From Traorella massiliensis (GTDB taxonomy: Bacteria; Bacillota_I; Bacilli_A; Erysipelotrichales; Erysipelotrichaceae), in the NCBI RefSeq assembly GCF_900104665.1, contig NZ_LT629968.1:186001-250000 (forward strand): a DNA stretch of 64,000 bases, in the 5' to 3' direction. A program made the translations under genes and the position numbers. This document shows, piece by piece, positions 28,268-31,601 of this stretch; positions within the stretch are counted from its first letter, which is position 1, and each line of letters begins with the position of its first letter. The notes beneath the pieces were generated by a model. The model did no database searches and had not been told where the DNA came from. It was given only the letters and a program-made list of their open reading frames with translations.

Positions 28268-28412
28268 TTTATATTAGTTGAGCGCCAGGACTAGTTTAGT
28301 TGACGAGGACAGCAGATTATCGAAAGATTCGGCGGGTACTGCTGCGGTATACCAATATCGTTAGAAATCATACAAAAATCAAAATCAACATTGAAACAAA
28401 AGTGATTTCATT
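28268..28412 (+). ncRNA. glmS ribozyme (glucosamine-6-phosphate riboswitch)
   Basis: The self-cleaving RNA that lowers glmS expression when glucosamine-6-phosphate is high. Conserved elements in order are AGCGCCAG (28281-28288), GTTGACGAGGA, the P3 stem CAGCAG/CTGCTG, TATCGAAAGATTCGGCGGG inside it, and a distal P4-like stem GAAATCA (28364-28370) with TGATTTC (28403-28409). Cleavage is expected between A28281 and G28282. The RNA ends just before the glmS ribosome site. Confidence 0.93.
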
Positions 28413-28431
28413 TGATAGGAGGAAAATGATA

Positions 28432-30299: not shown

Positions 30300-30305
30300 A
30301 ATAAC

Positions 30306-30360
30306 GGATGAACTCCATACAAATAGGAAACCCCAGTGGTGCTAGCACTGGGGTTTCATT
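30306..30360 (+). ncRNA. candidate antitoxin RNA of a type I toxin-antitoxin-like locus
   Basis: A predicted RNA of about 55 bases. It carries CTCCATACAAATA (30313-30325) and ends in a perfect 12-bp hairpin GAAACCCCAGTG/CACTGGGGTTTC (30327-30338 and 30346-30357). The same 13-mer recurs at 30497-30509, so this RNA would be complementary there to the opposing transcript, over the ribosome site of the small reading frame. That is the logic of Fst/par RNA II. The T-run after the hairpin is weak. Confidence 0.45.
30313..30325 (+). repeat. 13-bp direct repeat, copy A (copy B at 30497-30509)
   Basis: CTCCATACAAATA occurs identically at 30313-30325 and 30497-30509. Copy B reads on the minus strand as TATTTGTATGGAG and forms part of the TATGGAGGGGG ribosome site. 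Confidence 0.9.
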
Positions 30361-30379
30361 TAGGAGGGAGGATTGCGGA

Positions 30380-30487
30380 TTATCGTTGAATCAGACTGAT
30401 GTACAGTATGATCAAACGCAAACATTCTTTCACAGCTACTACATTTTCATATAATAACTGGAGAAGAATGATGAGTTCAAAACCCAA
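30380..30487 (-). CDS. candidate small hydrophobic peptide (toxin-like), reading frame 2
   Basis: A 35-codon frame starting TTG with GGAGGGGG five bases upstream. The peptide begins MGFELIILLQLLYENVV, then AVKECLRLIILYISLIQR: a hydrophobic segment broken by charged residues and a basic end, the general look of type I toxins, though I cannot match it to Fst, Hol_Tox or TxpA. An in-frame ATG exists at 30502 but lacks a ribosome site. Whether this or the overlapping frame 1 is translated cannot be decided from sequence alone. Confidence 0.35.
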   Translation of the reverse strand: MGFELIILLQLLYENVVAVKECLRLIILYISLIQR

Positions 30488-30522
30488 CTGCACCCCCTCC
30501 ATACAAATAATATAGGTGTCAT
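30439..30522 (-). CDS. candidate small peptide, reading frame 1 of the same transcript
   Basis: A 27-codon frame with ATG and a strong AGGAGGGAGTGAGG region upstream. Product starts MTPILFVWRGCSWVLNSS and ends in Tyr/Met-rich residues. The ATG lies in a stem (TAGGTGTC 30513-30520 with GACACCTA 30547-30554) that would hide the ribosome site in the loop. It may be a leader whose translation controls frame 2. Confidence 0.3.
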   Translation of the reverse strand: MTPILFVWRGCSWVLNSSFFSSYYMKM

Positions 30523-30555
30523 GGATCCTCACTCCCTCCTTTGTAGGACACCTAC
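30513..30555 (-). promoter_or_regulatory. alternative hairpins at the 5' end of the toxin-like transcript
   Basis: Two mutually exclusive stems are visible: a small 5' hairpin GTAGG/CCTAC (30551-30555 with 30543-30547) and a larger one, 8 bp, pairing 30547-30554 with 30513-30520 and enclosing the ribosome site and ATG. Such switching is typical for type I toxin mRNAs. A minus-strand TAGAAT lies just upstream (about 30556-30564). Confidence 0.4.
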
Positions 30556-30574
30556 TATTCTATATCCATGAAAT

Positions 30575-30729: not shown

Positions 30730-30835
30730 CACTCACTTTCTCGCTGAATTGTAACGATTCATCAGTTTGTTTTTTAAATAAACATAAATAATGTCGTATT
30801 AATGGGTATACTGGACATATAAGGAGGACCTGATT

Positions 30836-30907
30836 ATGTTCAATCTTATTGCAATCGTGGCAGCATTTTTCATCGGCTTCTTCTCTAGTGTCATTTTAGA
30901 AGCCTAA
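30836..30907 (+). CDS. 23-residue hydrophobic membrane peptide
   Basis: ATG with a perfect AAGGAGG seven bases upstream. The product begins MFNLIAIVAAFFIGFF and ends SSVILEA: a single membrane-spanning helix with almost no charge except one Glu. It is followed immediately by its own terminator and preceded by a TATACT -10-like box (30807-30812). The compact unit (promoter, ribosome site, frame, terminator) supports a real gene. It may be a small regulatory membrane protein or a type I toxin; no family was recognised. Confidence 0.55.
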   Translation: MFNLIAIVAAFFIGFFSSVILEA

Positions 30908-30937
30908 AAGCATTCTCATTACAGAGATGCTTTTTTT
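30906..30937 (+). terminator. intrinsic terminator of the 23-residue peptide gene
   Basis: AAAAGCAT-CTC pairs with GAG-ATGCTTTT (one bulged T), loop ATTACA, then a run of seven T. The stop codon lies at its base. Confidence 0.8.
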
Positions 30938-31013: not shown

Positions 31014-31042
31014 TTAACATTTGATTGAATTGTGTGTATAAT
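31014..31042 (+). promoter_or_regulatory. rubrerythrin promoter
   Basis: TTAACA, 17-bp spacer, TATAAT; -10 about 22 bases before the ATG. Confidence 0.75.
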
Positions 31043-31064
31043 GATGACAAAGGAGATGAAAACA

Positions 31065-31601
31065 ATGGAACTTAAAGGATCAAAAACAGAAAAAAATTTA
31101 ATGACAGCTTTTGCTGGTGAGGCCCAGGCTTCTATTAAGTATACGTACTATGCGTCAAAAGCTAAAAAAGATGGTTATGTACAGATTGCTAACTATTTTG
31201 AAAAAACTGCTGCCAATGAAAAAGAACATGCGAAATTATGGTTTAAGAAACTGCATGGCGGTATGCCTGGTACAGTAGAAAATTTAAAGGATGCTGCTGC
31301 GGGCGAAAACTATGAATGGACAGATATGTATAAGGAATTTGCAGCTGTTGCTCATGAAGAAGGCTTTGAAGACATTGCCAAGATGATGGAAGGCGTTGCT
31401 GCTATTGAAAAGCATCATGAAGAAAGATATCGCAAGCTTCTTGGAAATATTGAAGGTAAAGTTGTTTTTGCGAAAGATGATGTAGTTGTTTGGGAATGTT
31501 TGAATTGCGGTCACTTACATATTGGTAAAGAAGCTCCTGCTGTTTGCCCGGTATGTGATCATCCTCAGTCTTATTTCGCTCTTGAAGTAGAAAATTACTA
31601 A
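31065..31601 (+). CDS. rubrerythrin
   Basis: Non-haem di-iron peroxidase that removes hydrogen peroxide in anaerobes. The N-terminal ferritin-like four-helix domain supplies Glu/His ligands ([51 protein letters not shown]). The C-terminal rubredoxin-like domain binds iron with CLNCGHLH and CPVCDHP. Start chosen at [11 protein letters not shown] because AAAGGAG precedes it; the frame extends 11 codons upstream without a ribosome site. Length 178 is typical. Confidence 0.95.

Follow-up and report, generated by a model that had tools for sequence, protein, structure and literature searches.

The window analysed here is a 64-kb stretch (G000:C8:186001-250000) of a 2.6-Mb genome whose same-genus matches are named Traorella. 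On its plus strand, positions 30836..30907 (stop codon included) hold an ATG-initiated gene for a 23-aa membrane peptide, MFNLIAIVAAFFIGFFSSVILEA, recognised from the translation of the reading frame and from its conservation. The Shine-Dalgarno sequence TAAGGAGG (30820..30827, plus strand) lies 8 nt upstream of the ATG, and an intrinsic terminator (30906..30937, plus strand), composed of a bulged hairpin at 30906-30934 and a run of seven T residues, begins at the stop codon according to RNA folding. This terminator is absent from the list of a simple scanner, probably due to the bulge; the RNA fold shows the hairpin. The first-pass annotation of this DNA had described a ribosome site, a single-helix peptide and an immediate terminator, and all three were confirmed. 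Six Shine-Dalgarno-led open reading frames of 15-60 aa occur in the window, one of which, that at 30836-30907, passes the hydropathy threshold for a membrane helix (Kyte-Doolittle mean of at least 2.5 over 17 residues), its best 17-residue mean being 2.64. Among 20 simulated sequences of 64 kb with the first-order composition of the window, such reading frames arose at 6.25 per 64 kb and hydrophobic ones at 0.0 per 64 kb. The peptide matched no family in Pfam, PHROGs or PADLOC, and NCBIfam returned one match only (NF038351, cyt_ox_assem_30), covering 13 residues and scoring 16.3 bits against a cut-off of 27.5, in keeping with the earlier description of the gene as undescribed and too short for normal annotation.

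A search of the genus placed the gene in four of five Traorella genomes, as five copies. At the DNA level, the search of 60 relatives gave strong matches in G003 (87% identity over 166 bp) and G001 (74%), and a weak one in G004. G003, the nearest relative, encodes an identical peptide and a second tandem copy, MLNLVVIVAVFFIGFFSSIILEA, while the versions in G001 and G004 read MINLIVIVAAFFIGFFSSVILEA and MIDFMTVFAAFFIGFFSCIVLGLN, respectively. All ten nucleotide differences that separate the window from G003 between start and stop codon are synonymous, and the 16 differences from G001 change two residues; simulation of random mutations yielded so few changed codons in none of 100,000 trials for either comparison. 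The reading frame at 30836-30907 is under purifying selection, and it is this synonymous divergence from G003 and G001 that settles the reality of the gene. The first-pass annotation had proposed to look for a lack of conservation or for frame-breaking changes in close relatives, and neither was found. On sequence grounds, a genuine monocistronic gene for a predicted single-helix membrane peptide of the genus Traorella is well supported.

The distribution of the gene appears to be narrow. When 294 genomes of the order were searched with a profile, five matches stood far above background, all from Traorella; the next-best matches (E 4e-4 and 7e-4) had no Shine-Dalgarno-led small reading frame in the scanned DNA, and no convincing member was found outside Traorella among these genomes. 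Scanning of genome contigs revealed the peptide in two Traorella MAGs only, and scanning of viral contigs in none; this, together with the lack of a PHROGs match, led to the rejection of a phage origin. No copy was found in G002, a gap that does not prove absence because that assembly, at 79% completeness, lacks the nucleotidyltransferase neighbour too. The tandem second copy in G003 (L003:1304-1375) has neither the WYL-type promoter described below nor a clear terminator of its own.

Downstream, the peptide gene adjoins a rubrerythrin gene (31062-31601) with a promoter-like site of its own, TTAACA-17-TATAAT (31014-31042). In G000 and G003 the peptide gene precedes rubrerythrin and yaaA, and in G001 and G004 it precedes a nucleotidyltransferase (NTP-transferase) gene, judged in G004 from its beginning only. 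Because gene context differs in this way between species, we treat the peptide gene as a free-standing unit whose neighbours say little on its function. The first-pass annotation had pointed both to rubrerythrin and to a toxin-like locus in the same gap: the adjacency to rubrerythrin stands, the link is not conserved in G001 and G004, and nothing was found that ties the peptide to the toxin-like locus. A connection to rubrerythrin or peroxide was rejected on the grounds of the nucleotidyltransferase found instead in G001 and G004 and of the separate promoter-like sites in the window. The toxin-like locus itself (30305-30560) is made up of facing short transcription units sharing one bidirectional terminator (30327-30357). 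The direct repeat CTCCATACAAATA stands at 30313 and again at 30497, and a hydrophobic reading frame on the minus strand, MEGVQLGFELIILLQLLYENVVAVKECLRLIILYISLIQR, has a counterpart in G003; we take the locus to resemble a type I toxin-antitoxin locus of par/Fst-like layout. Further upstream, a glmS ribozyme (RF00234, 73 bits, 28270-28419) precedes glmS and is the sole Rfam match in the window.

The informative part of the locus, missed in the first-pass annotation, is the promoter. The palindrome AACATAAATAATGTC (30781..30795, plus strand), a candidate operator one base off GACATAAATRATGTC, spans roughly -38 to -24, where a -35 element would be expected, and is followed by an 11-nt spacer (30796..30806) and the -10 hexamer TATACT (30807..30812), both on the same strand, the distance from palindrome to start codon being 55 nt. 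No -35 element is recognisable 16-18 nt from TATACT, where the best candidate matches at three of six positions. An alignment of four species has its best conserved non-coding block around CATnAATAATGT, plus parts of the -10 and of the Shine-Dalgarno sequence, and the arrangement palindrome-N11-(-10) is kept at the peptide gene in all four Traorella species that have the gene; the length of the spacer is fixed in these species and across the promoter class to which we assign the site below. Genome-wide, the 13-mer ACATAAATAATGT has two mismatch-free occurrences in the 2.6 Mb, one at the peptide gene and the other at a gene for a WYL regulator, and 16 identical bases stand upstream of the two genes.

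A hairpin that could pair the sequence before the Shine-Dalgarno with the start codon was noted at 30812-30841. Its folding energy is -10.4 kcal in G000 and -8.7 kcal in the first G003 copy (G003a), which carries a compensatory change; the second G003 copy (G003b), G001 and G004 lack it or have a weak or different one. A role as a riboregulator was considered and set aside. The 5' arm of the hairpin probably precedes the transcription start.

Two readings of the peptide that dispense with a WYL regulator can be weighed at this point. A type I toxin of the TisB, Fst or Hol_Tox kind, held down by antisense RNA, would share with the peptide its length, its one hydrophobic helix and a short mRNA with its own terminator, and might be suspected from the toxin-like locus in the same gap and from the 5' hairpin that can form over the start codon in G000 and G003a. 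We consider it highly improbable, seeing that antisense promoter-like sites vary in place and strength with none conserved among the five copies, that the hairpin is so inconstant and its 5' arm, starting at the end of the -10, would mostly lie ahead of the transcript, and that the peptide is devoid of positively charged residues, which Fst and TisB have. The peptide might otherwise serve a membrane enzyme as a small housekeeping subunit (CydX, KdpF or cytochrome-oxidase-assembly type), its promoter likeness being coincidental. Its helix does present a face of small residues (A10-x3-G14-x3-S18), as is typical of accessory subunits, and the sub-threshold match to cyt_ox_assem_30 points the same way; that match is, however, one of 13 hydrophobic residues, no partner enzyme gene is seen directly beside the peptide copies, the peptide is restricted to one genus, and the promoter geometry recurs in four species, which together make a housekeeping subunit improbable.

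The regulator gene (G000:C9:563983-564924), with a copy of the palindrome 34 bp upstream, encodes a 314-aa protein of winged-helix/WYL/WCX architecture (Pfam: WYL 1.3e-10, WCX 7.5e-6, and HTH_11 5.6e-5, the last just short of its cut-off). A profile of 17 orthologues compared with solved structures matched PafBC best (E 2e-15), followed by DriD (E 1.5e-7) and BrxR (3e-4). The predicted fold, of low global confidence (mean pLDDT 77, pTM 0.42), retrieved DriD and PafBC chains at ranks 1-15 (E 7e-14 to 6e-11), then BrxR and CapW at 4e-8 and weaker. A second aligner ranked them alike: the DriD C-domain scored Z 14.2 (rmsd 8.2, 190 residues) and BrxR Z 11.8 (rmsd 12.9, 216 residues). Domains, profile and fold rankings agree in placing the predicted protein among WYL proteins of the DriD/PafBC group. 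PADLOC groups it with CRISPR-associated WYL proteins, and it also aligns with the N-terminal region of a Cas3c model resembling a WYL-Cas3 fusion.

Orthologues of the regulator (E 1e-30 or better) are present in 21 of 60 relatives, all belonging to the family of the window, and their operons often place an ankyrin gene before the regulator and a DUF2779 gene after it (PF11074, 1e-32, tested in G001). Allowing up to two mismatches, GACATAAATRATGTC occurs within 650 bp upstream of 8 of the 21 orthologues (125 bp for G031, whose regulator lies near a contig end), as compared with 22 of 4200 shuffled windows and none of 21 windows inside the regulator genes. No palindrome was found upstream of the regulator in G004, and G001 and G002 have degenerate sites only. 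By eye, the site at the Traorella regulator gene itself lacks a hexamer at +11 and sits between a conventional promoter and the Shine-Dalgarno sequence, a position that suggests autorepression.

The 11-nt spacing was first noticed on perfect sites and then counted across the 60 genomes on every site that had one mismatch or none (109 sites). In genomes that carry the regulator (WYL+), 20 of 51 sites have a TANNNT hexamer at +11, the next best offset reaching 5 of 51; for genomes lacking it (WYL-) the count is 5 of 58 (Fisher P 2e-4). Once perfect sites and the window are left out, the counts are 13/43 and 5/57 (P 0.008). Sites outnumber a reversed-word control by 51 to 25 in WYL+ genomes, compared with 58 to 60 in WYL- genomes (P 0.018). 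All these P values are optimistic, as sites before orthologous genes are not independent. Across 272 genomes of the family, 36 perfect sites face about 26 for the reversed control; by itself the word is thus enriched mildly at most, and the argument is carried by position and geometry. TANNNT follows at +11 in 21 of these 36 sites (13/26, plus 8 of the other 10). We therefore assign the peptide promoter, with good though not full confidence, to a putative class of WYL promoters of DriD/PafBC type, and if this reading is right, such promoters can be recognised by sequence alone, as palindrome, N11 and -10.

Further genes of the Erysipelotrichaceae stand behind GACATAAATRATGTC-N11-TANNNT. The promoter precedes regulator operons in G012, G015, G017, G025, G026, G164 and G183, and an ankyrin gene in G211. 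In G015, a complete type I-C CRISPR-Cas operon with its array (L144, G015:C11:7300-17300) lies behind a pair of WYL-type palindromes, each followed by a -10 at +11. Such CRISPR systems were rejected as a general target of the promoter: only 2 of 60 genomes have type I-C, and in the second of these, G010, no good site lies upstream, the best having five mismatches. Perfect palindromes also precede rsmG in G033, G151 and G268 (L164, L165 and L180; the identity of the gene was tested in G033 and assigned in the other two by resemblance to it), hinting that ribosome or chromosome-partition genes may belong to the regulon. Behind palindromes in G140 (L179) and G290 (L291), genes that look transposase-like by eye were noted; Pfam gave no support for this identity. 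In G004, AACATAAATAATGTCG lies some 20 nt in from the end of an IS-like repeated element, four copies of which (L130-L133) stand at contig ends. A small alarmone synthetase-like gene in G005 was dropped as a target, the nearby site facing away from it and lacking the hexamer at +11.

The same promoter is found before a second group of tiny proteins, an unannotated family of 43-53-residue single-helix proteins with the pattern CMxxDPxFxxLAxxQxxSW in genera g30, g2 and g69 (L147-L151, L166 and L181). It precedes members in G033, G140, G214 and G110, which are all four searched species of g30, and others in G257 and G151; the palindrome stands 54-59 nt upstream of the start codon, much as at the peptide gene (55 nt). 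A homologue in G005 has the related palindrome GTCATATATAATGAC. An HD-domain gene lies 3' of the family gene in G033 and G257, where this was read. Homology of the 23-aa peptide to this family was rejected, with 22-48% of shuffled sequences aligning as well; the promoter alone is common to both. The promoter grammar may serve to find small membrane protein genes that annotation overlooks; following it brought up directly this other family, unrelated to the peptide, in three genera.

How the regulator would act at these sites admits two answers. The WYL protein could be a repressor in the style of BrxR or CapW that sits over the -35 and is relieved by a ligand or phage, the peptide being a membrane effector of defence or abortive infection. 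BrxR and Sll7009 are WYL regulators that repress defence loci (PMC9122601), the site at the Traorella regulator gene lies just downstream of its -10, as does R-BOX1, and both the PADLOC results and the type I-C cas operon that carries the promoter fit a link to defence. Nevertheless, repression should depend on a functional -35 and be compatible with variation in spacing, whereas the fixed 11 nt to a -10 in the absence of a -35 suit an activator that replaces the contact of sigma-4 with the -35, and the closest solved relatives of the regulator are activators; we judge repression with a defence effector to be rather unlikely. Activation rather than repression has, in our estimate, a modest advantage.

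Taken as a whole, we lean slightly towards a membrane peptide that is switched on by a WYL activator upon DNA damage or invasion, in a manner resembling DriD-DidA. The regulator at G000:C9:563983-564924 most likely binds the palindrome of the peptide gene. A single-stranded DNA or other nucleic-acid signal arising from damage or invasion would bind its WYL domain, and a dimer on the palindrome, at about -38 to -24, would then help RNA polymerase to use the -10; on induction by damage or ssDNA in particular, we find the balance even. A short mRNA would be made and terminated, and the peptide would enter the membrane and restrain a membrane protein through its small-residue face. The partner would most plausibly be a late component of division or of the cell wall, as for DidA under DriD and SidA under LexA in Caulobacter, yet division control as the role of the peptide is in itself unlikely. 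The anonymous 23-codon reading frame becomes by this account a testable output of a regulator and, if the account is right, a Firmicutes counterpart of DriD-DidA, with CRISPR-Cas expression and tiny membrane proteins brought into one regulon. More tentatively, we can imagine in the Erysipelotrichaceae an SOS-independent, ssDNA-sensing WYL regulon with its own grammar, in which CRISPR-Cas, transposons and rsmG would be coupled to arrest by tiny membrane proteins that change from lineage to lineage and are unrelated to one another; the 23-aa Traorella peptide would be such an executor, and among the smallest known. Literature searches brought up, among the records listed, no account of such a WYL-linked small membrane peptide system in Traorella or the Erysipelotrichaceae.

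Several known systems invite comparison. In both DriD and PafBC, ssDNA triggers activation (PMC12340889, PMC11804915). The closest parallel is DriD-DidA of Caulobacter crescentus, in which a WYL regulator of the same fold group controls a small single-helix membrane protein, as is proposed here. The placing of the sites is similar in the two systems: those of DriD are -35-proximal at didA and -10-proximal at driD (PMC12340889), and the Traorella palindromes take corresponding positions at the peptide gene and the regulator gene. DidA (71 aa) and SidA (29 aa) block division in Caulobacter as small single-helix proteins (PMC4211646). No sequence kinship of the peptides is claimed, and the Traorella system differs in the length of its peptide (23 aa), in its 15-bp palindrome with a fixed N11 to the -10, and in the placing of a CRISPR-Cas operon under the same promoter in related genomes. 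PafBC, the mycobacterial factor for sigma adaptation, is the best solved relative of the regulator by sequence, and is an activator that inserts itself between sigma-4 and the promoter DNA and so substitutes for the -35 contact (PMC11804915); it is a heterodimer that works with a -26 motif, in contrast to the one 314-aa protein and the palindrome found here. SidA and YneA, the latter a small single-helix membrane inhibitor of division in the SOS response (PMC13396833), resemble the peptide as tiny single-helix membrane proteins under damage-type control, which is established for them and proposed here, but they are SOS-controlled, whereas the promoter described here is of WYL type. BrxR and CapW, finally, share with the regulator the winged-helix and WYL architecture, inverted-repeat operators (with a 5-bp spacer for BrxR; PMC9122601) and defence targets, and are set apart by their greater distance in profile and fold and by the mode of action of BrxR, which represses from an operator placed immediately downstream of the promoter.
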